Virus record (IMG/VR): IMGVR_UViG_3300033144_001517
Coordinates: 1-22,570 of that record
Origin: a virus
Strand: one strand, 5' to 3'
Length of the DNA stretch: 22,570 nt
The position numbers were made by a program, and so were the translations under genes. Of this stretch, positions 1 to 22,570 are shown in pieces. Position 1 is the first letter of the stretch, and each line of letters opens with the position of its first letter. The notes beneath the pieces are model-generated. The model worked only from the letters and a program-made list of their open reading frames with translations. It was not told the origin of the DNA and did not search any database.

Positions 1-153
1 GCTCGCGGCGAAAGTGTAGCTAATATAGATGAGATAGCTAAGGCTACTGATCTAGTTGCTGCTATGTCAGCAGCTCATGAGGTTTATCAAGCTGCAAATA
101 ACATTGTTGTAAGTCAGGAAGATCGCCTAGGCCTAATTAGAAGAATGGTATGA
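1..153 (+). CDS. C-terminal fragment of an unidentified protein
   Basis: The first frame is open from the window edge to a TGA at 151-153, giving the last 50 residues of a protein whose start lies outside the window. The fragment is predicted to be largely helical (runs such as VAAMSAAHEVYQAA) and ends in RRMV. Its stop overlaps the start of the next gene in an ATGA arrangement (150-153), so the two are probably translationally coupled. The spacing of small and hydrophobic residues is loosely like the C-terminal helix of flagellar rod and hook proteins, but 50 residues are too few to assign a family. I do not recognise the gene; that it is the end of a real gene is supported by the coupling and the open frame. 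Confidence 0.6.
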   Translation, partial: ARGESVANIDEIAKATDLVAAMSAAHEVYQAANNIVVSQEDRLGLIRRMV

Positions 154-707
154 AAATTCTATTCTTACTATTACTACTACCTAGTTTAGCCTTTGCTACT
201 TGGGGTTCCGATGATTGTGATCACCCACGTTTTCAAGAGGTGGGTTGTACCTACCCCGGTGAAAAAGGTGACCCTGGTGAGGATGGACAAGATGGGGCTG
301 ACGGAGCTAAGGGTGATACTGGAGAACGCGGACTTCAAGGTACACCGGGAGTAGTTTCAACTACGTGGATCACTGAAACTCGTAATTGGCAATCTAAGTG
401 GTTGCACTACGCAGCCGCTAGTGATGCTATTCAAGTTCATCTTCCACAAGATTTGCAATCCCGTTTGACATTTGGTATGTCTAGTATTCGTGGCACACAA
501 GGATATGCTGTGGGTTATGCATTTAAAAATGATGATAATATAGCAGTCACTTTCGCCTTGGGTACTAGTGGCGGTGAGCAAGTTGGTAAAGCTAGCATTG
601 GATTTGAATTTGGTGGTAAGAGCAAACCTAAGTATATATCCTTTAGTGAATGTACTTATGTTAATGGTAAGTTAAATTTTGAACAGAAATGCGTAAAAGC
701 TAAATGA
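150..707 (+). CDS. Secreted collagen-like protein with YadA-like anchor region
   Basis: This 185-residue protein begins with a signal peptide: MK, a run of leucines, and probable cleavage after AFA at residue 16. A short segment with two cysteines (C23, C33) follows, then eleven uninterrupted Gly-X-Y triplets at residues 37-69, a collagen-like trimeric stalk. Residues about 85-154 resemble the YadA-type membrane anchor: a short alanine-rich helix (YAAASDAI), then alternating strands with RGTQGYAVGYAF, NIAVTFAL and KASIGFEF. Proteins of that family are outer-membrane trimers that end at the last strand; this one carries about 30 extra residues with two more cysteines (C168, C181). Export and trimerisation are well supported, outer-membrane insertion is inference. 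The start overlaps the upstream stop, and the stop overlaps the next start. A role at the surface of the infected cell, such as receptor masking, or a virion decoration are both possible. Confidence 0.75.
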   Translation: MKILFLLLLLPSLAFATWGSDDCDHPRFQEVGCTYPGEKGDPGEDGQDGADGAKGDTGERGLQGTPGVVSTTWITETRNWQSKWLHYAAASDAIQVHLPQDLQSRLTFGMSSIRGTQGYAVGYAFKNDDNIAVTFALGTSGGEQVGKASIGFEFGGKSKPKYISFSECTYVNGKLNFEQKCVKAK

Positions 708-853
708 TGGGTGGCTGCGCTTATACACTAGGGTCAATAACTTTAGTGTGTATGATATTCTTAGCGGCACAGGCTCTGTTTGGTACTGGCGGTGCTATAG
801 CTATGTTTATAGTAGCTATATTATGGCTTTTTGTGTGTGGGGGTGAGATATAA
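704..853 (+). CDS. Small two-segment membrane protein
   Basis: A 49-residue frame starts at ATG 704, overlapping the previous stop as ATGA, and ends with TAA at 851-853, whose last base is the A of the next ATG. Almost the whole chain is hydrophobic: one segment at about residues 9-26 (with LVCMIFLAAQALF) and a second at about 30-45 (with AMFIVAILWLFV), separated by a glycine turn. It is therefore a predicted hairpin inner-membrane protein with a short acidic tail. The tight overlaps at both ends argue that it is translated and coupled to its neighbours. It could be a small holin-like or partner protein for the flanking gene products, but no family-specific motif is visible and no lipobox is present. 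Confidence 0.6.
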   Translation: MMGGCAYTLGSITLVCMIFLAAQALFGTGGAIAMFIVAILWLFVCGGEI

Positions 854-1332
854 TGAATGCTTGGTGGAAAGTTATAGGTTTAGGCCTTAGTAAGATACCA
901 ATGAAGATAATCACTCTAGGTGTAGTACCTTTTCTAGATGATGAAGCTAGAAACGATCATCCTATTTTTGGTGTGCGCGATGCTACTGATTTAAGCTGGT
1001 ATAATATTGCTTGGCGCAATGGTGTACATAATATGTATAACCGTGAGATGCCCGTTTGGAAAGAGGCAGCCTCTAATACTAAAGATTTAACTCTTGAGAA
1101 TGAGGACGGTTTTCAATGGCGACTTCGCGTAAGTGAAGATGGTGAATACGTTAGTTTTCGAGTGTCGTGGGGTAAAATTAAACCCAAGAAAGGAAAGAAC
1201 GAATTTTATGTGGGCTGGGTAATGAATGAAGATGCCGAGTACATGCGCCTGACGTTTTTTCAGTTACGACCTGCGTGGTTTATCTTAATCCCTATTGTAC
1301 TAGTGTGGGGCGTTGTGAAAATTTTTACGTAG
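853..1332 (+). CDS. Phage protein with C-terminal membrane segment, function unknown
   Basis: This is a 159-residue protein. The N-terminus is mildly hydrophobic and amphipathic (IGLGLSKIPMKIITLGVV). The middle is soluble, with the motif WYNIAWRNGVHN at about residues 49-60, and the final 20 residues form a clear membrane segment (WFILIPIVLVWGVVKIF) after the positively charged FFQLRP. The WRN..HN motif and the closing FFQLRPAW resemble a family of uncharacterised proteins common in phages of Gram-negative bacteria (possibly DUF7338; I am unsure of the number). The gene shares one base with the stop of the preceding small membrane gene (TAATG) and is the last gene before the promoter at 1353. 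No enzymatic motif is seen; a role at the inner membrane or in lysis is conceivable but unproven. Confidence 0.65.
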   Translation: MNAWWKVIGLGLSKIPMKIITLGVVPFLDDEARNDHPIFGVRDATDLSWYNIAWRNGVHNMYNREMPVWKEAASNTKDLTLENEDGFQWRLRVSEDGEYVSFRVSWGKIKPKKGKNEFYVGWVMNEDAEYMRLTFFQLRPAWFILIPIVLVWGVVKIFT

Positions 1333-3318: not shown

Positions 3319-5280
3319 ATGGTACTGAAAGACAAAGTTATTAAACTATACTCTCTAATCGAAACTAAAGAAGATGGGGAAGATGGAGAATTACATATTA
3401 CTGGACATGCAAGTACAAATAGTGAAGATCGCTCCGGCGATGTAATTGTATCGGAAGCATGGAACAAAGCAGGAGCTTTAACAAATTATCTAAAGAACCC
3501 AATCGTTTTAGCATACCATGATATGTCTAAACCAATCGGTAAGACAATTGGTCATGAAGTAGATGATAAAGGTTTAAAGATAACAGCTAAGATTAGCAAA
3601 GCCGCTGGAGATATTCTTGGACTTATTAAAGAAGGTATTCTTTCAGCATTCAGCGTTGGATTTATTGTAAAAGATGCTGACTATGATTCTAAACATGGAA
3701 TCTTTGTGATTCAAGAAGTAGAATTATTAGAAGTCAGCGTCGTATCAATTCCAGCTAATCAAGATGCACTTTTCAGTATTGAAAAGAATTTTCCTGATTC
3801 AGAACAATATGTAGAGTTTAAAAAACAATTTATCAAAGAAAGTGAGGAGACTTTAATGGTAGACAAAACAGATAAGGGTTCGAACCCTATCGATGTAGCC
3901 GCTTTAGTTGCAGAAATTACTTCAGCAGTTAAGTCTGATATTAAGACTAGAGACGCCGAAGAGGCAGCTAAACAGGCAGCAGAGAAAAAGGCTGCTGAAA
4001 ATATGGAAGCAATTGCTACCACAGCAGCAGAACGCTTAGTTAAAGATCTTGATGAAAAGTTAGCAGAGAAAGATGCAAATCTATCTGAGATGTTAACTGG
4101 ACTCCATGATCAAATTAAAGCGATGGCTGAAAAAGGCGAACTAAAAGAAGTCTTTGATGCTAAAAACAAAGGAAAAATGGAATATAATGAAGATAAAGGC
4201 ACCCGCTTTGAGAAGCTAGATACTAATACTCGTGATGGTATTATGTATGCTTCTAAACTTCTAGGCATTCCAGCTACAGAAACAAAAACATTTAAAGATT
4301 TTGTTAAGAAATCTGGAATGGAGCATTGGGACTCCGGTGTAACCGGTGAGTGGGAAGATGAGTATTCTACACGAGTTCAAAACGCTATGCGTGAACAACT
4401 AGTTGTAGAGTCATTATTTACCTCTATTCCAATGTCTACACCTACAATGAATATGCCTATTAACCCAGAAGCGGGTGACGCTACTTGGGTTCATGAAAGT
4501 GCATATCGTTCAGATACGGCCCCTTGGGCTGAAACAGGTGATGGTAGTGATACCTCAACCGGTACAGCAGTTGATCATGAAATCGATGAACAAACTTTAA
4601 TCGCTCGTAAATTAGCAACTAGAGAGTACATCGGGTATGAAGAAGAAGAAGACAGTATTGTCGCTCTTGCTCCTATTATCAATGATGCTGTTGCTCGTAG
4701 AATGGCACGTACCTCTGATCTAGCTTACTTACGTGGTACTGGATTTTTAAGTAATTCAGTAGCTTACGATCCTATTCTTGGATTGGAAGGCCGCGGCGCT
4801 GGTACAACTGATTTAACCATTGCCGGTAGTGCATCTTGGGCAGCAAATGTGGCTGAAGATGACGTTGCTGATATGAGAAAAAATCTTGGCCTTTATGGTT
4901 TAGATCCATCTCAACTAGTTTTACTTGTTTCGCATGATTACTACTATGAGTTAATGAAGTTAGATAACTTCAAAACAGATGATCTAGCTGGTATTGATCG
5001 CGCTACACTTAGAACAGGTCAAGTTGGCAGTATTTTCGGCGTAACTGTTCTAGTTTCTCAAATGTTTGACAATGCAGCTATTGTAACTGGCACAACAGGA
5101 ACAACGCTAGCCATTATGGTTAGACCAAGTAACTTTATTACCGGTGTGCTTCGTGGAATCACCACAGAAGCCGATAAAGACGTAATCAACCAGAAACGAG
5201 TTATTGTTTCTAGTCGTAGATTTGCGTTTAATGATATCATCACAGGTGAGGCTACAGTTAACCTACAAATTACATCTTAA
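3319..5280 (+). CDS. Fused prohead protease, scaffold and major capsid protein
   Basis: This 653-residue protein joins three functions usually split over two or three genes. Residues 1-155 are an S78-type prohead protease: GHAS and DRSGD near 30-41, candidate catalytic H67 in AYHD, nucleophile S112 in AFSVGF, and the acidic LLEVSVVSIPAN segment around E138. Residues 195-275 are charged and alanine-rich, a coiled-coil scaffold (delta) domain. Residues from about 330 onward are the HK97-fold capsid protein, with TSIPMSTPTMNMPI, the ARRMARTSDLAYLRGTG helix and the closing RRFAFNDIITGEA. The protease is expected to digest the scaffold during maturation, with a cut somewhere before residue 300. 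The ribosome site GAGGAAG lies just before ATG 3319. A second start inside the gene is listed separately. Confidence 0.93.
   Translation: MVLKDKVIKLYSLIETKEDGEDGELHITGHASTNSEDRSGDVIVSEAWNKAGALTNYLKNPIVLAYHDMSKPIGKTIGHEVDDKGLKITAKISKAAGDILGLIKEGILSAFSVGFIVKDADYDSKHGIFVIQEVELLEVSVVSIPANQDALFSIEKNFPDSEQYVEFKKQFIKESEETLMVDKTDKGSNPIDVAALVAEITSAVKSDIKTRDAEEAAKQAAEKKAAENMEAIATTAAERLVKDLDEKLAEKDANLSEMLTGLHDQIKAMAEKGELKEVFDAKNKGKMEYNEDKGTRFEKLDTNTRDGIMYASKLLGIPATETKTFKDFVKKSGMEHWDSGVTGEWEDEYSTRVQNAMREQLVVESLFTSIPMSTPTMNMPINPEAGDATWVHESAYRSDTAPWAETGDGSDTSTGTAVDHEIDEQTLIARKLATREYIGYEEEEDSIVALAPIINDAVARRMARTSDLAYLRGTGFLSNSVAYDPILGLEGRGAGTTDLTIAGSASWAANVAEDDVADMRKNLGLYGLDPSQLVLLVSHDYYYELMKLDNFKTDDLAGIDRATLRTGQVGSIFGVTVLVSQMFDNAAIVTGTTGTTLAIMVRPSNFITGVLRGITTEADKDVINQKRVIVSSRRFAFNDIITGEATVNLQITS
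3844..3849 (+). promoter_or_regulatory. Internal ribosome binding site before M180
   Basis: The hexamer GAGGAG lies six bases before an in-frame ATG at 3856-3858 within the protease-capsid gene. The same hexamer, eight bases from its start, serves the first tail tube gene (8059-8064). It is as good as or better than the site at the gene's own start (3308-3314), which argues for real initiation here. Confidence 0.65.
3856..5280 (+). CDS. Nested scaffold plus major capsid protein from an internal start
   Basis: Starting at the in-frame ATG 3856 yields residues 180-653 of the fusion (474 residues), which lack the protease and begin just before the scaffold domain. That length and composition (about 100 residues of charged helix followed by a capsid domain) match the normal HK97-type capsid precursor. 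The supporting evidence is the GAGGAG site six bases upstream and the location exactly at the linker between the two domains. It would give many capsid subunits and few protease copies from one message, as nested genes do in lambda (C and Nu3). Proteolytic processing of a single fusion is the alternative. Confidence 0.6.
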   Translation: MVDKTDKGSNPIDVAALVAEITSAVKSDIKTRDAEEAAKQAAEKKAAENMEAIATTAAERLVKDLDEKLAEKDANLSEMLTGLHDQIKAMAEKGELKEVFDAKNKGKMEYNEDKGTRFEKLDTNTRDGIMYASKLLGIPATETKTFKDFVKKSGMEHWDSGVTGEWEDEYSTRVQNAMREQLVVESLFTSIPMSTPTMNMPINPEAGDATWVHESAYRSDTAPWAETGDGSDTSTGTAVDHEIDEQTLIARKLATREYIGYEEEEDSIVALAPIINDAVARRMARTSDLAYLRGTGFLSNSVAYDPILGLEGRGAGTTDLTIAGSASWAANVAEDDVADMRKNLGLYGLDPSQLVLLVSHDYYYELMKLDNFKTDDLAGIDRATLRTGQVGSIFGVTVLVSQMFDNAAIVTGTTGTTLAIMVRPSNFITGVLRGITTEADKDVINQKRVIVSSRRFAFNDIITGEATVNLQITS

Positions 5281-5940: not shown

Positions 5941-7628
5941 TGGCTAAAAGAATCAATTCAAGACTTAAAAGACAGTTAGAAGGTAAGGCCAATAGAGAAA
6001 AAATGAAAGGTCTTAAATTAGAAGTCACAGTTGAAAAGTCAACAGAAACTTCTAGGCCTCCTAGTACTAATAAGAAAGAACTTAATAGTTTCTTACAAAA
6101 AGTTAAAGTAATTTTAGATCAAGATTCAACTAAAAAATCAAGAATTCGAAAAGACAAAAGAATTCAAGCCGTTATATTATCGGCCGATGAAATTTTTACT
6201 GAAGTTTCTCATTCTCTATCTCCTTTTATGTACCCAGAAGATCCGGGTAGTACTGAAAGAAAAAGAATAGCAAAGATTATAGCCAAAGATTTATGGAATA
6301 TATATAAAACTAAAGTAAATATTGGAACAGTTTATATTCAAGGCCAAGAAGATGCTTTTGTAAGAGATCCTAATCCTGCGGCGTTATTTGACAATACTAC
6401 TATGGTGATGTATGTTCACGGTAAAAAAGGTACAAGTCATTTTGGTAGATTAAGTAAAACGGTCAATCCAGCACTAAAAAGATATTTAAGAACTAAACCT
6501 TCTAGCGATCCTACGCGCGTATTTTTTCTTCCTGATGATGAATATTATGAAGAAAAAAAAGCACTAGAAGGACAACTGGAAAAAGATTATCAAGCTTCAT
6601 CGGGGTTAATTAGTTCACGTGCTCCAAGCAAGACTCCCGAAGCGGCCAAGAAACAGTGGAAGATCAATCAAAGATCTAAGCGTCAAGGATTTAAAGATTT
6701 AAGGGCTAAATATCCCGGTAATAGAGGCGGAGCAGTTTTAGGTCATACTTTTGGTCCTGGAGTAAGTGTAGGGTCCGCAGGTCTTTTAGATGATAAAACT
6801 ATAGTATCTCAACAAGATATAAATGATGTTGAACTATCAAGTGTAATTCCAGCAGAATTACGAACAACACTAAAACCTTTATTTATTGAATTAGTAAGTG
6901 AAGGTGACGCAAAACTTATATACGAGCGCACAGTAAGAGCTAATAATGTTATTGGCGAAATTGCTATTATAGCACCAGAATTAGCTTTGAAAAACTCCAG
7001 AGAGGGTACTGATGCTCAAAAAACTCTAAAAAAAATTAAAATAGAAATAAGAAAATACGAAAGAAAAATAATAAATATGGGTGGTAGCCCAAGTTTTGTA
7101 AGATTAATAAGAGAATATATAGAAAGTATATTTTTAGGTGTTAAACCTAAAAATAAAAAATATACTACTAGGAAAACTATTAAAAAAGGGGGAAAAACTG
7201 TACTCCCTGTTACTGTAAACACTATTAAAGGTGGAACAGCAAGAGTTAGAGATGTTGGTGGGTCTTCCTCTGGGTCTGCTGGAACAGATTTAAATTCAAC
7301 AATAGGTTTAATAAATAGAAAGCTTCATGACCAAATTCAAAAGAACATGGGCAAAGGTAGATCAAAGAAGATATTAAACTATAGAACAGGTGACTTCGCC
7401 AGATCTGCAGAAGTTCAAACATTTTTTGATGCACACGAGAAGAACGCCATTGGCGCTCGCGTTAAATATCAGAGACAACCTTACGGAGTATATGAACCGG
7501 GAAATTACCCTCCATTATATAAACCAGGAAGAAGCCCCGCTAGAATATTCGGAATTAGTATTAGACAAATATTACAAGAAGAACAAATTGTTAAGCTAAG
7601 ACGAGTTAAGGTAGAGTTAAGTGGCTAA
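5940..7628 (+). CDS. Large basic neck-region virion protein
   Basis: This 562-residue protein is rich in lysine and arginine. Its last 130 residues resemble a phage structural domain: NSTIGLINRKLHDQIQKNMG, then ILNYRTGDFARSAEV, aromatic PYGVYEPGNYPP, and a closing SIRQILQEEQIVKLR. In other phages this domain occurs in head-tail joining or neck proteins. The first 430 residues contain a conserved-looking GHTFGPGVSVGSAGLL at about 277-292 and several helical, highly charged stretches, but no catalytic motif I recognise. The position between the adaptor and the tail terminator fits a head completion (stopper) or neck role, yet it is far larger than stopper proteins (usually 100-150 residues). 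It overlaps both neighbours, by one base upstream and eight downstream. Exact function is unknown. Confidence 0.7.
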   Translation: MAKRINSRLKRQLEGKANREKMKGLKLEVTVEKSTETSRPPSTNKKELNSFLQKVKVILDQDSTKKSRIRKDKRIQAVILSADEIFTEVSHSLSPFMYPEDPGSTERKRIAKIIAKDLWNIYKTKVNIGTVYIQGQEDAFVRDPNPAALFDNTTMVMYVHGKKGTSHFGRLSKTVNPALKRYLRTKPSSDPTRVFFLPDDEYYEEKKALEGQLEKDYQASSGLISSRAPSKTPEAAKKQWKINQRSKRQGFKDLRAKYPGNRGGAVLGHTFGPGVSVGSAGLLDDKTIVSQQDINDVELSSVIPAELRTTLKPLFIELVSEGDAKLIYERTVRANNVIGEIAIIAPELALKNSREGTDAQKTLKKIKIEIRKYERKIINMGGSPSFVRLIREYIESIFLGVKPKNKKYTTRKTIKKGGKTVLPVTVNTIKGGTARVRDVGGSSSGSAGTDLNSTIGLINRKLHDQIQKNMGKGRSKKILNYRTGDFARSAEVQTFFDAHEKNAIGARVKYQRQPYGVYEPGNYPPLYKPGRSPARIFGISIRQILQEEQIVKLRRVKVELSG

Positions 7629-8055
7629 TAAAAGAACACAAATAGTTGCAGCTATAGCTGATCTATTAAAAAATAATTTAACGGGTGAAAGTCCTTACAT
7701 TACTAATATTTTTGAAAATGTAAAAGCTAAACAGGTCTTTTGGGATGAAGTAACAGATTACCCTTTTATATGTGTATATAGTGGGGGAGAATCAAGAGAG
7801 TATCTTCCTGGAGATTTTAAATGGGCTTTTTTAGCTGTTAATATAAGAACTTATGTTAATGATGAAGAAGCAAAAGATAGAATTGAAGAAATATTCGAAG
7901 ATATCGAATTAATACTGGATAATAATAATAATCTTATCGTGGACGGTAATAACCTTAGTTGCGATATAAGAATATTGTCATTATCAGACGATGAAGGAGT
8001 ATTAAATCCTATAGGTGTTGGTGAAATAACACTTGAGGTCAGATACGAAGTATAA
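7621..8055 (+). CDS. Tail terminator / tail completion protein (probable)
   Basis: A 144-residue protein starting at GTG 7621, eight bases inside the previous gene. The family pattern is a first helix (QIVAAIADLLKNNL), a strand region (FICVYSGGESREYLPGDFKWAFLAVNIRTYV), a helix of acidic residues (RIEEIFEDIELIL) and final strands (GVGEITLEVRYEV). This alpha-beta layout and the position immediately before the tail tube gene fit tail terminators such as lambda gpU, which cap the tube and join it to the head. No direct motif proves it; assignment rests on fold-like pattern and gene order. The GTG start and modest ribosome site suit a protein needed in few copies. Confidence 0.65.
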   Translation: MANKRTQIVAAIADLLKNNLTGESPYITNIFENVKAKQVFWDEVTDYPFICVYSGGESREYLPGDFKWAFLAVNIRTYVNDEEAKDRIEEIFEDIELILDNNNNLIVDGNNLSCDIRILSLSDDEGVLNPIGVGEITLEVRYEV

Positions 8056-17021: not shown

Positions 17022-17421
17022 AAAAAATTTAACAAGTATAATCTACAAATATAAAGACTTAAAATTTAACTGGAAAGATTTTGATTGTTGTATTTTTACG
17101 GTCAATGTAGTCGAAGAATATACAGGATGCCCTTTGCCACTTTGGAGAGAGGTAATAGATTATACTAATTTTAGGGGCGCAATGAAAGCTTTACGAAAAT
17201 TGGGTTGTAAAGATTTAAAAAATTTACCAGATATTATATTAGATACACCTAAGAAACCTATCTCTGAAGTAAAATTAGGAGAACCCGTTTATTATATAAA
17301 TGAAGAAGGTGAAGGTATTTTAGGTGTATGTAATGGTGCACAAGCATATTTTTTAAAAAGGAATGATGGGTTAGTGACTAGAAAGATAGAAAATTGTTTA
17401 TATTGTTGGAGTATTGACTAA
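16990..17421 (+). CDS. Tail-tip protein in the NlpC/P60 position, DUF6950-like
   Basis: This 143-residue protein has the marks of the DUF6950 group: a cysteine motif WKDFDCCIF (about 28-36), then YTGCPLPLWR, a helix GAMKALRKLGC, and later VKLGEPVYY with GILGVCNGAQAYFLK and a closing CLYCWSID. The layout parallels NlpC/P60 peptidases, which occupy this slot (lambda gpK, GTA gene 14) and open peptidoglycan. However, no histidine occurs anywhere in the chain, so the usual Cys-His-His mechanism is not available; a structural role as a plug or hub component is more likely. The start at ATG 16990 overlaps the previous gene by 32 bases; GTG 17014 is an alternative. The stop shares one base with the J-like start. 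Confidence 0.7.
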   Translation: MGIQVIKKVVKKNLTSIIYKYKDLKFNWKDFDCCIFTVNVVEEYTGCPLPLWREVIDYTNFRGAMKALRKLGCKDLKNLPDIILDTPKKPISEVKLGEPVYYINEEGEGILGVCNGAQAYFLKRNDGLVTRKIENCLYCWSID

Positions 17422-20400
17422 TGGGTCAAGCCATAGCCGTAGCAATTACAGGTTTAGCAGCTACATCAACACCAGTTCTTGTCATTGGTGCGATAATCAA
17501 TCTTGCTATAGCAACTATACTAGGAAAAATTCTAGCCCCAGATGTAAATGATAGTAGAGATACTAGAGGGATGCAAAGAGCTGTACGTAATAATATTTTA
17601 CCACGTAGAGTAATATACGGAGAATGTTTAGCTGGTGGCCCCTATGTAGTTCTAGAAACGTTGGGCAGAGACAATGAAGAATTAACCTTTATAATAGCTT
17701 TAGCCGGACATCCGGTAGATGATATATTGGGTATTATACTGGAAGATTTTTATGCTGATATAAGTGGTAGATATCCAATTGCCGCGCCCGCAGATAATGA
17801 TTTATCTCCTACGTGGGAAACGGGAGTAGGTTCTGGGGTAGCAAAAGTAGTTAAAAATTTAGGGTGGGGTTATGCTGATTTTCAGTATGTTACAGATGGA
17901 GCTAAGCAGGACGCTGCAGATGATAGAACTAGGGCGGCAGAACAAGAAACTACTTTACTTGAAACACAGTGGGATATTCCTACTTCTACAGTAAGAGATA
18001 GTGAAACCGGTCTTTATAATAATGATACGGCACCGGTAGATAGAGCCAAATTAACAAATATAGCACATATTTTATTTAGCATGGAGTATGATCCTGAAAA
18101 TAGTATAGGGTGGCCGAACCCCAATTTTCATGTAAGAGGAAAAAGATTATACAACCCTTATTTAGATCCTAATTTAGCAGTATATGGAGCAGATACTTCT
18201 GGTACTCATGATCTTAATGATCCAGATACTTGGGAGTGGTCAGAAGACTGGACTCTATGTTGCTTAGATTATTTAATTAATAGTGCATATGGTTTAGGTG
18301 TCAGAGCTAATACTATCAGCCCTACAGATAGAACTTTAAATGAAGTAGATTGGGAAACTATGATCCAATCATATTTAGAAAGTTCAGAAATTGTATCTAA
18401 CGGATTACCTAGTGGGCATGTAGATAATGGAACCGGTCCTAGATATACGATTAATGGTCTTTTTGAGGTTGGTGACACCCCCATGTCAATAATGGAGAGT
18501 CTACTAACTTCTGGTTCAGGAGAGTTAATATACTCTCAGGGCTTATATAAATTAAGACCTGGGGTATACAGAGCCCCCAGCTCGGAAACCGATATTATAA
18601 ATGAAGATATGATGGTTGGACCTTTAACTATTCAAACACATACCCCCCGAGCAGATTTATTTAATAAAGCAGCGGGAGTTTTTGTAGATAGAGGATATAA
18701 CAGAGACGTAGCTAAAAGTAAATTAAATTTACCCTTATATGTATCGTCAGACTTCGAATTAGTAAATCCTTTAGATTCTAGTGGAGTTAATCCTTTTGAA
18801 GTAATAGATGGGGAAGAGATAACCGAACACTTCGATTTCCCCTTCACAACAAGAAATTTCGAAGCTCAGAGATTAGCTAGAATTCAATTAGAACGAGTAC
18901 GCAGGGGTTTAAGTGTAAGTTTCAACGCCACTCTAGAAGTATTAAAGTATTCTGTAGGGGATACAATATATTTAGAAATATTAAATGATTCTAAATATAG
19001 TAGTGAATTATTTTTTAATAGATTAGGTCTAGATGATTCAGTCCAAGATAGACCAGATACTCCATTTACTCCTTACTATAAACAATTCAAAATAGTTAGC
19101 ATGGAGTATAATGAAGATTTTACTATAGCAGTAACACTATTAGAAGAATCAGAAACAATATATGAGTGGAATGATGGCGATGCTAGCCCTGACGAAGATA
19201 ATTTAATTTCTGATTTAATTATAGGAGACCCTTTAGGTACAGTACAGCCCCCAGATTTTGTTGTAGCTAGTCCAGAACAAACTATTACTGAAGTAGAAAA
19301 AGCTTCAGGAGTTGAAGTTCAAATAAAATGGTCTGCCCCAGATAGGGGTTCTGTATTAGATCAAGTAGACAGAGCGTTTATAGAAAGTTATATTTTAGAA
19401 TTTGGAATAGTAGATAATCCCTCAGAGGCAGATCCCGCAGATAGAGTTTCTACTTGGGCACCTGGCGGCATATTTACGCCAACTGATAGAGTTCCCATAG
19501 TTCAAGGTCCTATAGTTTTATCAAATTTATATATAAATGATACTACAGACTATGATTTCAGATTAAGGTCTTTAACGTTTTCTGGCAGATCTTCAGTATG
19601 GGCATACTACAGTACTGATGTAGGGTCGGACTTTTCTCCAACAGCACCTACAGTTTCAACTAGGTATTATATTTTACCCACGTCTGGAACAGTAATACAA
19701 AACGGAGCAGGTGAATTAACTGTAGAGGCGCGCGAGGTTACTACAACTGGAGATATATTACTAAGCTCTGGCAATATAAGATTATATGTGGGCTCTTTAG
19801 AGGTTACCTCAGCTAATGGGTTTGTTTCACCCTCTGATGGTTATACAGGTATATTTAATGCTGGAGACATCAGTGGAAATGTATTAGTAGAACTAAGAGA
19901 TGATGTAGCAGTGGAGTTGTATGATACAATTTCACTGGCTGATATAACTGATGGTGGTGCTGGATCAGATGCAACATCTGGTTATATAGAGGCAAAAGAT
20001 ACCTTAGCCTGGGTTAGGGGAACAGATGCAATTTGGGATCCTACAGATACTAGTACTAATATGGATGTTACATTTGTCCGAGGCGGATCGGAGGTAGCTA
20101 GATGGTCTAGACAAATAGATAGAAGTGGTTTAACTTTATCCGATGGCGGAGCTACTACACATGCGGGGACTAATTTAAATACAGGAGATATAACCCCTAC
20201 TGTTACTATTATGCCACTGGGAAGGGGTGCAGTAGTTGAATATTATTATGATGATGGTGGTGGAAATATAGCCTATGTAGCAGAAATAGCTACAGTTACC
20301 TATTCCGGTATATCAAGACTCTATATTAAACCTACAAATACTGCTATTAGAAATGGTGTAGGCACTATAACGTTAGAAGGTCGTATAGTCGATGAAAATG

Positions 20401-22570
20401 GAGATGCTCTACTTACTTCTGGAACAATTCAGTTATACGATGAAAACGATAATTTAATAAGTACAAATAGTCCTGGCAATTATCCAAGTCCTTCAGATGG
20501 GTATACAGGAACATTTACCGCAGCTGAAATAAATAGTGAATTAACTGTTTATTTAGGTGAAGGCGCCCCTCCAGCAACTTATTATGATAGTATAACTTTA
20601 GTAGATGTTACAGATGGTGAAGCTGCTATTGCGGGTTGGATAACACCAGAGTTTTTAGCTTGGCGTCGAGATATAGATAGTGGAGCATGGGTACCTGCAG
20701 CAGGTACTACCCAATTAGATATTATATTTAGTATCGGCGGAGTAGATGCCGCCAGACAAGGTTATTTAATAACTAGAGATTCGGATGGTTTATTAACGGG
20801 GGGGACTACAACAGCAGCTTCCCCAGGTAATTTAAACACTGGTAGGCTTACTCTCAGTACTTCTGGAACTGGAACCACTAACTTTACTATTCAAGCGGAC
20901 TATAGTTTCGATAGCATCACTAGTAGTGTAGCAGAAACTGTGTTTTCAGTTGCTGGCGGGGATTCCGCAGTGACTGGACATTTAACACAAGAAAATTTAG
21001 TTTATCACTCAGCATCTGATCAAGTTGTAACTTTGCCTGCTGGCGCCGTTTCTCAATTTAAAATGTATCAGGGTGGATCAGACATAACTGCTGATAGTGG
21101 TGTAGATTTTCAAGTACTTAGTCCAGACACTGATGGTGGTGTAACATTAAGTATAGATAATGGTGCAGGTGCAACTCAAGGTGAAATTAGCTTAACTGGA
21201 ACATGGGACCAAGCGGTATCTGAGTGGTTAATGACAGGTACATATGATGGTGTAACCATTGAGAAAGGTTTTGGAATAGCTAAATCTATTGAAGGACAAA
21301 CTGGTTTTTCTGTAGTTCTTACTAATGATGCACATACTATACCCGTAACTAATTTAGGGGTTCATGATTATACAGGTTCTGGAACATCTATAGAAGTATT
21401 TATAGATGATGTCAAACTCGTTTACGATAGTACGAGTCCGTATACTGATGGATCTTTCAGAGTAACAAATGTATCTGCAAGTAATATAACAGCAGGCTCT
21501 GCCTCTTTCCCAAGTCCCGGCGATTTCGTAGTATATGCAGATGCTAGTGCTATGACTGCAGATACTGCATCAATTACTTACACGCTTATTGTACGCAATA
21601 ATAATGGATTAGAGTCAACAGTTACTAGAGTACAAACCTTATCTAGATCTGTAGCTGGTGCTGACGGCATTAATACATATTTATCTAATGAAGCACATAC
21701 AATAACAGCAGATAATGATAGTACTAACTATACTTTACCAACTAATCCAGTTTCACAATTTTATGTATTAGACGGTACAGTAGATGTAACAGATACCTCT
21801 GCAGTAACTTACTCAGTAGTTGGGTCGGCAGTTAAAAATGGTTTAACTATAAGCATTAATGATGCTATAGGTAATAAAGGTGAAATTTCATTATCTGGCG
21901 CATCTCCAACTTGGACGTCTGACGCTGAGAACTTTACAGTTCGTGCCACATATAATACAGTAAATTACGATAAAGTATATTCAATATCTAAAGCTTTAGC
22001 GGGTGCTGAAGGACCAACAGGAGATCCAGGAGATCCGGGGGCAGATGGAGCAGATGGTGAAGTAGGTTGGGGACATGATTTAATATTCTCTTCAATTGAT
22101 GAGGATACAGTAGGTTGGACATATGGAACAATTTGGACAGCAGCGGGTGGGACTTATCCAATAGAAAGTCCTGGTGCAGATACTGGCAACATGACAGCTA
22201 GAACTTATATTTACTTTGATTCAAATAGTCCAACTCCAACTACGTTATCTACTACAACCGATGCACAAACTTCAGTAGGCTTAGGTAAAATACTAATTGC
22301 AGTTGCGGAAGATAATATAGAAGCTAGTCCGAATGTTGGTGAAGCAACTTTCCAAGTATTTGGTGGTGCTGGTGGACTTAAAATAGCAGGAGATGAAATT
22401 GCTGCTAATAGTATTCTTGCTAATAATATAAATTCTACCTTTTTCCAAGGTGCAGTATTTAGTGGCGGAATTTTTCAAACTAGAAAACCTTTAACTTCGT
22501 TACCAAGTCCACTACCTGATACTTCTAGAACTTCTATTTCCGAGGGTGGTCAGCTTCAAATTCAAGATAA
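17421..22570 (+). CDS. J-like tail tip / receptor-binding protein, 3' end outside window
   Basis: The frame starts at ATG 17421 and is open to the last base, giving at least 1716 residues. I translated it to the end and found no stop. The N-terminus is hydrophobic (residues 1-40), then comes the tip attachment core with NNILPRRVIYGECLAGGPYVV and LTFIIALAGHPVDDI, as in lambda gpJ and GTA megatron proteins, through about residue 600. An FN3-like domain follows at about 611-745 (VQIKWSAPD, then YDFRLRSL). After that come two long beta-rich repeats (748-1177), three shorter repeats (1178-1527), eight Gly-X-Y triplets (1528-1551) and a distal region resembling phage fibre tails. The protein should form the tip and central fibre, open the tube, and choose the host receptor through its C-terminal part. 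Confidence 0.88.
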   Translation, partial: MGQAIAVAITGLAATSTPVLVIGAIINLAIATILGKILAPDVNDSRDTRGMQRAVRNNILPRRVIYGECLAGGPYVVLETLGRDNEELTFIIALAGHPVDDILGIILEDFYADISGRYPIAAPADNDLSPTWETGVGSGVAKVVKNLGWGYADFQYVTDGAKQDAADDRTRAAEQETTLLETQWDIPTSTVRDSETGLYNNDTAPVDRAKLTNIAHILFSMEYDPENSIGWPNPNFHVRGKRLYNPYLDPNLAVYGADTSGTHDLNDPDTWEWSEDWTLCCLDYLINSAYGLGVRANTISPTDRTLNEVDWETMIQSYLESSEIVSNGLPSGHVDNGTGPRYTINGLFEVGDTPMSIMESLLTSGSGELIYSQGLYKLRPGVYRAPSSETDIINEDMMVGPLTIQTHTPRADLFNKAAGVFVDRGYNRDVAKSKLNLPLYVSSDFELVNPLDSSGVNPFEVIDGEEITEHFDFPFTTRNFEAQRLARIQLERVRRGLSVSFNATLEVLKYSVGDTIYLEILNDSKYSSELFFNRLGLDDSVQDRPDTPFTPYYKQFKIVSMEYNEDFTIAVTLLEESETIYEWNDGDASPDEDNLISDLIIGDPLGTVQPPDFVVASPEQTITEVEKASGVEVQIKWSAPDRGSVLDQVDRAFIESYILEFGIVDNPSEADPADRVSTWAPGGIFTPTDRVPIVQGPIVLSNLYINDTTDYDFRLRSLTFSGRSSVWAYYSTDVGSDFSPTAPTVSTRYYILPTSGTVIQNGAGELTVEAREVTTTGDILLSSGNIRLYVGSLEVTSANGFVSPSDGYTGIFNAGDISGNVLVELRDDVAVELYDTISLADITDGGAGSDATSGYIEAKDTLAWVRGTDAIWDPTDTSTNMDVTFVRGGSEVARWSRQIDRSGLTLSDGGATTHAGTNLNTGDITPTVTIMPLGRGAVVEYYYDDGGGNIAYVAEIATVTYSGISRLYIKPTNTAIRNGVGTITLEGRIVDENGDALLTSGTIQLYDENDNLISTNSPGNYPSPSDGYTGTFTAAEINSELTVYLGEGAPPATYYDSITLVDVTDGEAAIAGWITPEFLAWRRDIDSGAWVPAAGTTQLDIIFSIGGVDAARQGYLITRDSDGLLTGGTTTAASPGNLNTGRLTLSTSGTGTTNFTIQADYSFDSITSSVAETVFSVAGGDSAVTGHLTQENLVYHSASDQVVTLPAGAVSQFKMYQGGSDITADSGVDFQVLSPDTDGGVTLSIDNGAGATQGEISLTGTWDQAVSEWLMTGTYDGVTIEKGFGIAKSIEGQTGFSVVLTNDAHTIPVTNLGVHDYTGSGTSIEVFIDDVKLVYDSTSPYTDGSFRVTNVSASNITAGSASFPSPGDFVVYADASAMTADTASITYTLIVRNNNGLESTVTRVQTLSRSVAGADGINTYLSNEAHTITADNDSTNYTLPTNPVSQFYVLDGTVDVTDTSAVTYSVVGSAVKNGLTISINDAIGNKGEISLSGASPTWTSDAENFTVRATYNTVNYDKVYSISKALAGAEGPTGDPGDPGADGADGEVGWGHDLIFSSIDEDTVGWTYGTIWTAAGGTYPIESPGADTGNMTARTYIYFDSNSPTPTTLSTTTDAQTSVGLGKILIAVAEDNIEASPNVGEATFQVFGGAGGLKIAGDEIAANSILANNINSTFFQGAVFSGGIFQTRKPLTSLPSPLPDTSRTSISEGGQLQIQD
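19656..20951 (+). repeat. Two tandem long domain repeats in the tail tip protein
   Basis: Two units of about 215 residues, 19656-20309 and 20310-20951, are alike at the protein level. Both contain an RYYILPT/RLYIKPT opening, I.NG.G.LT/ITL.., SGNIRLY/SGTIQLY, PSDGYTG.F, a YD.I.L.D.TDG block, LAWVRGTDAIW/LAWRRDIDSGAW and a closing NLNTG. They look like immunoglobulin-type fibre modules. They are too diverged to be a DNA-level repeat. Confidence 0.75.
20952..22001 (+). repeat. Three shorter domain repeats in the tail tip protein
   Basis: Three units of about 110-123 residues lie at 20952-21299, 21300-21668 and 21669-22001. Shared elements are an opening with LTNDAHTI/LSNEAHTI, VSQFKMYQGG/VSQFYVLDG in units one and three, QGEISLTG/KGEISLSG, and a closing boundary of the type KSIEGQTG, RSVAGADG or KALAGAEG. 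Units one and three are closest to each other. Confidence 0.7.
22002..22073 (+). repeat. Collagen-like Gly-X-Y stretch in the tail tip protein
   Basis: About eight Gly-X-Y triplets (starting GAE GPT GDP GDP GAD GAD GEV) follow directly on the last domain repeat. Short collagen segments in tail proteins act as trimeric linkers between rigid modules. The triplets GDP and GAD are also used in the secreted collagen-like protein at 150-707. Confidence 0.75.

Follow-up and report, generated by a model that had tools for sequence, protein, structure and literature searches.

An undescribed phage protein family that joins a collagen stalk to a predicted trimeric-autotransporter-type anchor

Results

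A collagen stalk and a probable outer-membrane anchor in one small phage protein

Why would a phage encode a small exported protein that appears to carry collagen repeats on an outer-membrane anchor, and place it among its packaging genes? The question is raised by an open reading frame near the start of the window, a 22,570-nucleotide stretch of viral DNA (IMG/VR record IMGVR_UViG_3300033144_001517). An earlier note, made from the sequence alone, took the product for a miniature trimeric autotransporter-like protein that projects a short collagen rod from the infected cell, where it could block superinfection or alter adhesion. The structural half of that interpretation (signal peptide, collagen stalk, and an anchor of the trimeric autotransporter, or TAA, type) stands, while the remainder takes its place among three live options for the role. 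The frame runs exactly from 150 to 707, as the note had it, and encodes 185 amino acids. The features of the locus are as follows.

1..153, + strand: C-terminal end of the upstream gene (fragment), from sequence; by eye it resembles the frame L031:447-788
150..707, + strand: predicted outer-membrane anchor protein with a collagen stalk, 185 aa (coordinates include the stop), one of a family of 26
150..197, + strand: Sec-type signal peptide (residues 1-16) with a likely cleavage site after AFA and the hydrophobic core LLLLLPSLAFA
216..248, + strand: tip loop CDHPRFQEVGC (C23-C33); cysteine pair spaced 6 or 9 in 25/25 members with an N-terminus
258..356, + strand: 11 perfect Gly-X-Y triplets, residues 37-69 (PF01391 and shuffle test)
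363..428, + strand: predicted pore helix, residues 72-93 (AlphaFold2)
456..611, + strand: predicted YadA-type anchor of four strands, residues 103-154 (PF03895, AlphaFold2, Foldseek, VIA-align)
615..704, + strand: C-terminal extension with C168 and C181, a low-confidence hairpin (AlphaFold2 pLDDT 45-60), clade-specific
704..853, + strand: overlapping gene for a 49-aa membrane protein with two hydrophobic stretches, a candidate partner (sequence; counterparts in relatives)
853..1332, + strand: 159-aa protein with two hydrophobic segments, possibly co-transcribed (sequence)

The upstream gene ends across the start codon of the 150-707 frame (ATGA, four bases shared), and the stop codon of that frame in turn overlaps the start codon of the next gene, so that it looks like one cistron in a translationally coupled string. 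The L031 frame that resembles the upstream fragment lies between TerL and the collagen-anchor gene of that contig. The signal peptide reported by the note, judged by eye from the sequence and from the alignment of members, is of Sec type, and every member with a complete N-terminus has a signal-like one. The eleven Gly-X-Y triplets are likewise confirmed; when the protein is shuffled 20,000 times, no run exceeds 6, so a run of 11 is far beyond chance, and the Pfam Collagen model PF01391 scores above its cut-off (E 2.3e-6, 27.7 bits against 27.2). A triple helix built from these residues would measure about 9.5 nm. Just ahead of the collagen lies a second conserved cysteine pair, C23 and C33, which the note had missed. 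PHROG matches are essentially limited to the collagen stretch, and PADLOC and NCBIfam give no useful name for the protein.

The predicted fold of the anchor

The Pfam model YadA_anchor (PF03895) matches residues 103-154 at E 1.4e-6, with 28.7 bits where the cut-off is 22.7, and a monomer model computed with AlphaFold2 from an alignment of 14 relatives has a helix at residues 72-93 followed by strands at 104-113, 116-126, 131-140, and 143-152; averaged by block, pLDDT is mostly 84-96. The helix and alternating strands that the note had likened to a YadA anchor are both there, and the segments it quoted (LTFGMSSIRGTQGYAVGY, NIAVTFAL, and KASIGFEF) fall on predicted strands 1-4. A Foldseek search with the model against 350,542 PDB chains returns membrane anchors as its best five matches, from Hia (3emo, 8.0e-5), Hia (2gr7, 1.8e-4), AtaA (9vnj, 5.1e-4), Hia (2gr8, 7.2e-4), and YadA (2lme, 0.013), with no other value below 0.08. 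VIA-align gives Z scores of 9.3-10.8 to the same five PDB entries, and 6.0 to the next best. A structure prediction with no barrel was to refute the note's reading, and the monomer model, with its barrel-type anchor, does not refute it. At the sequence level the best three PDB chains for a profile of the anchor are again YadA and Hia, none of them individually significant, and the anchor as a single sequence has no match among PDB sequences.

The fold of a TAA anchor, one helix and four antiparallel strands per chain, is present both in this model and in that of a longer relative, L037, whose anchor is the same and matches AtaA and Hia by Foldseek and VIA-align. By its modeled fold, then, the 150-707 protein very probably carries a trimeric-autotransporter-type anchor, in which three chains would complete a 12-strand barrel. 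Location of the anchor at the extreme C-terminus is usual for TAAs and does not define the fold. Here strand 4 ends in GFEFGG and 31 residues follow it, so that the chain does not end in an aromatic residue of the anchor; because it continues past the last strand, we call the protein TAA-like rather than a canonical TAA. The note was right that this extension has two cysteines (C168 and C181), and right that it is unlike the known family, since TAA anchors in solved structures and nine YadA-anchor proteins of cultured phages all end at the last strand. AlphaFold2 draws the tail as a hairpin (residues 162-183), which at pLDDT 45-60 is unreliable. The protein has no lipobox and is anchored by a predicted barrel-type domain, which sets it apart from spanins of the Rz/Rz1 type.

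A family of 26 members with exchangeable tips

Viral contigs and one bacterial genome collection were scanned by pattern and the results filtered by the anchor profile, which gives 26 distinct members with the collagen and anchor layout: the window, 24 other viral contigs, and one Desulfuromonadales MAG. The gene occurs in 1 of 277 genomes of that MAG's class, and therefore looks phage-borne. Collagen matches all 26 members, and YadA_anchor matches 16 of them at E <= 0.01, several below the curated cut-off. Candidates L002, L003, L005, L006, and most of L043-L091 were dropped after the anchor-profile search showed that they matched via collagen repeats only. The members constitute a previously undescribed phage protein family.

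All 25 members with a complete N-terminus place two cysteines, spaced 6 or 9, before the collagen, and the tip so defined comes in three types (CDHPRFxExGC with close variants, C-x3-PHHC, and C-x3-HQQC), each with at least one histidine. The window protein has the CDHPRF type and L117 the PHHC type, though their sister anchors are 73% identical. Comparison of the two sequences suggests that the tip has been exchanged as a module, as expected of an exposed, exchangeable part. Between the same two anchors dN is 0.175 and dS 1.58, values by which the gene is under purifying selection. In another pair, L119 and L120, the anchors are almost identical and the C-terminal tails differ, a pattern that suggests recombination at the domain edge.

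C-terminal extensions and the adjacent gene

An extension is carried by 24 of the 26 members. Two (L137 and L141) end canonically, in ...VEF. Six (the window, L030, L031, L117, L119, and L120) have a short extension of about 30-40 residues with cysteines, spaced C-x12-C in five and C-x6-C in L117. The remaining 18 have a long extension of 85-139 residues; in the one modeled, L037, the anchor is followed by a linker and then by one continuous helix of 87 residues, with pLDDT mostly 92-98. TAA chains end, by established topology, on the periplasmic side of the outer membrane, and by this analogy the extension should be periplasmic.

The class of extension goes with the gene that follows. Each of the 18 long forms has an abutting downstream gene of 84-103 codons (overlapping, or with almost no gap), whose product has a hydrophobic segment at its N-terminus and is acidic in its C-terminal part, resembling an i-spanin only in this arrangement. 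These 18 pairings are not independent events, the long forms being mostly one clade. Even so, one long form, L118, is placed in the short clade (support 95/92) with the partner type still present, and long forms retain the partner gene across different genomic settings. In five of the six short forms the abutting gene encodes a membrane protein of 43-51 residues; the window copy is the gene at 704-853, and its counterparts, alike in position and size class, are in L030, L031, L119, and L120. The two members that lack an extension have unrelated downstream neighbors, judged by eye to be an SPFH/prohibitin-like gene in L141 (6246 onward) and a proteasome-subunit-like gene in L137 (6251 onward).

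Genomic setting

The window corresponds to a head module like that of T5, with a portal protein 40% identical to that of Pectobacterium phage My1, and the 150-707 gene sits between the terminase and HNH positions. Close relatives of the window share this packaging-gene setting, and five members are found behind genes resembling that of the terminase small subunit. In eight other members the gene directly follows a group that encodes a CHAP-like enzyme or a candidate peptidase together with a small membrane protein, an Rz-like protein, and a lipoprotein, and in two more it lies close behind a GH108 endolysin. Neighbor assignments besides GH108, CHAP-like, and TerL are drawn from size, topology, and weak matches.

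Comparison with known proteins

Genes resembling YadA have been reported from virulent phages over more than a decade and filed as putative virulence genes or tail proteins (PMC3728262, PMC9146016), PMC3728262 being the one that mentions them as putative virulence genes. We located YadA-anchor proteins of cultured phages by Foldseek against viral models, and read some of them. Signal peptide, collagen, and YadA_anchor occur together in phiEco32 gp119 (an "agglutinating adhesin") and in Salmonella FSL SP-076, Yersinia YenM_P778, and Salmonella Munch phages. Like the window protein, these are phage-encoded, with Gly-X-Y stalks of 21-41 triplets, and those of phiEco32 and SP-076 share the cysteine pair ahead of the collagen. 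Unlike it, they have a canonical anchor that ends at the last strand, with no extension, and their genes lie among non-late genes. The leftward region of phiEco32 holds middle and early genes, the early ones probably for host takeover (PMC8948821); its position there would make gp119 itself an early gene. RefSeq names gp119 (NC_010324, 69718-70515) a tail protein, which looks wrong. A tblastn search of 50,697 cultured phage records with the window protein and anchor fragments of three members found nothing credible, and the family anchor profile showed no significant link to gp119, so that common descent of the two collagen-anchor groups is unsupported. The "YadA domain" protein of Pectobacterium phage My1 was rejected as a relative, having no PF03895.

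Among cellular proteins, the anchors of YadA, Hia, and AtaA (PF03895) share the order of signal peptide, N-terminal passenger, and C-terminal pore helix with four strands per chain; the 150-707 protein differs in having collagen in place of head and coiled-coil stalk, in its small size (185 aa), and in the chain that runs past the last strand. In AtaA-TpgA, a TAA anchor of the outer membrane has a periplasmic partner of its own (PDB 9vnj; PMC13082670). There, however, TpgA is a separate peptidoglycan-binding protein, whereas here the anchor chain itself bears the extension and the candidate partner belongs to the inner membrane. In Burkholderia, Bucl8 forms an outer-membrane trimer that displays a collagen triple helix outside the cell (PMC7682875), but it is a TolC-type efflux channel, chromosomally encoded, with the collagen elsewhere in the chain. 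The immunoglobulin-binding Eib proteins are YadA-like and prophage-encoded (PMC6024878; EibC and EibD were found by similarity), but no collagen stalk is described for them and their setting is lysogenic conversion. We found no description of a collagen-stalked TAA in the open-access literature. As far as we have searched, the plan of collagen plus anchor already exists, unexplained, in cultured phages, and the extension classes, cysteine-tip types, and partner gene are undescribed. The family sets the exported, anchor-bearing kind of "YadA" phage protein apart from a virion protein of the same name, and its plan is constant: a cysteine tip, a collagen rod, a predicted barrel, and optionally a putative periplasmic arm with a membrane partner gene.

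Proposed role, and alternatives

The best overall explanation, to which we assign about an even chance, is that the protein is a miniature TAA-type outer-membrane protein that remodels the surface of the infected cell. Its N-terminal sequence would direct Sec export and be cleaved; three chains, each contributing the pore helix and four strands of the monomer model, would form one outer-membrane beta-barrel; and the cysteine-loop tip and Gly-X-Y repeats would be carried out via the barrel and zip into the triple helix on the cell surface, a step that we infer from the TAA mechanism and from collagen chemistry. This much of the anatomy we consider highly likely. The C-terminal extension would remain in the periplasm, where, in the long forms, its proline-rich linker and single long helix may bind the small inner-membrane protein whose gene comes next, as the invariable pairing of the two suggests. 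Expressed from the packaging or lysis region of the genome, the protein would most likely alter the infected-cell surface, such that further phages, released progeny included, adsorb less to the infected cell or its debris.

Surface remodeling fits best because the protein is exported, phage-encoded, and fitted with an exchangeable tip. Blocking of adsorption as its specific effect is a tentative proposal that falls somewhat short of an even chance. Surface blocking usually comes early in infection, and the place of the window gene by packaging genes, and of relatives by lysis genes, suggests late expression, which counts against it. So does the tip CDHPRFxExGC, which is very conserved across unrelated phages, more so than a simple steric shield needs.

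Linkage to lysis genes and the inner-membrane partner keep open a trans-envelope role, in which trimer, extension, and partner would bridge the envelope and, with holin, endolysin, and spanins, help to open or break it. The position of eight members directly after a lysis-like cassette, and of two more close after an endolysin, favors such a complex, as does the spanin-like layout of the protein encoded next to every long form. However, the same phages appear to have an Rz-like/lipoprotein pair too (by weak matches only), the gene is located at packaging genes in the window type and in five other members, two members lack both extension and partner, and it is hard to see what lysis would gain from a collagen rod on the cell surface; we regard this role as rather unlikely. 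Should the trans-envelope pairing hold, it would give phages a novel means of linking or remodeling the two membranes of the host. A related proposal, that the family forms a two-membrane apparatus in the dying host, with a barrel-anchored collagen trimer whose own C-terminal helix reaches the co-encoded inner-membrane protein, is doubtful; were it correct, the collagen rod would form the outer face of a novel kind of phage envelope complex that differs from both spanins and TAA-TpgA.

Kinship with TAAs, a fold family mostly adhesive, brings in adhesion or aggregation, by which the rod tip would bind a surface, another cell, or matrix and hold infected cells or debris together, with the extension mechanically reinforcing the anchor much as TpgA does for AtaA. 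The periplasmic partner of AtaA resists extraction in simulations (PMC13082670), the surface collagen region of Bucl8 binds fibrinogen (PMC7682875), and the prophage Eib proteins, as TAA relatives, bind immunoglobulin (PMC6024878). But the gain for a phage about to lyse its host is not evident, and the rod is very short and has no known adhesive domain, which leaves adhesion an unlikely role. By far the least probable reading is a virion decoration or tail protein. Tail fibers often contain collagen repeats (as in the PHROG matches), annotators often name such genes tail proteins, and a cyanophage "YadA domain-containing structural protein" has been detected in virions by mass spectrometry (PMC9146016). 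Against this, every member with a complete N-terminus has a cleavable-type signal peptide, the PHROG matches cover essentially the collagen only, and the P-HM2 cyanophage protein of that same name, with neither signal peptide nor YadA_anchor, is a different thing.

The role of the family is testable in a tractable coliphage with the simple form, phiEco32 or its relative Bas90. The protein may also serve as a minimal scaffold, of natural origin, with which to display collagen on Gram-negative cells.

Other genes of the locus

The HNH protein at 1431-1799 is 34% identical to a T5-type site-specific nicking endonuclease, likewise found between terminase and portal. The T5 gene at the locus equivalent to 150-707 was ruled out as a homolog, being an unrelated gene for a cytoplasmic-type protein. 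Between HNH and portal genes, L030 encodes (7173-7781) a protein in which a hydrophobic segment at the N-terminus accompanies a PAS domain (PF08447, E 3e-8); L029, L031, and further loci of the short class have it too, and in the window that place is taken by a shorter protein of 86 aa (1802-2062). No tRNA or Rfam RNA was found in the window. The 653-aa frame at 3319-5280 is a protease-capsid fusion, with prohead serine protease (PF04586) and phage capsid (PF05065) domains. A tail-tip-like frame (17421-22568), which runs off the end of the window, has a short Gly-X-Y stretch of its own (GDPGDPGADGADG) near its C-terminal part.
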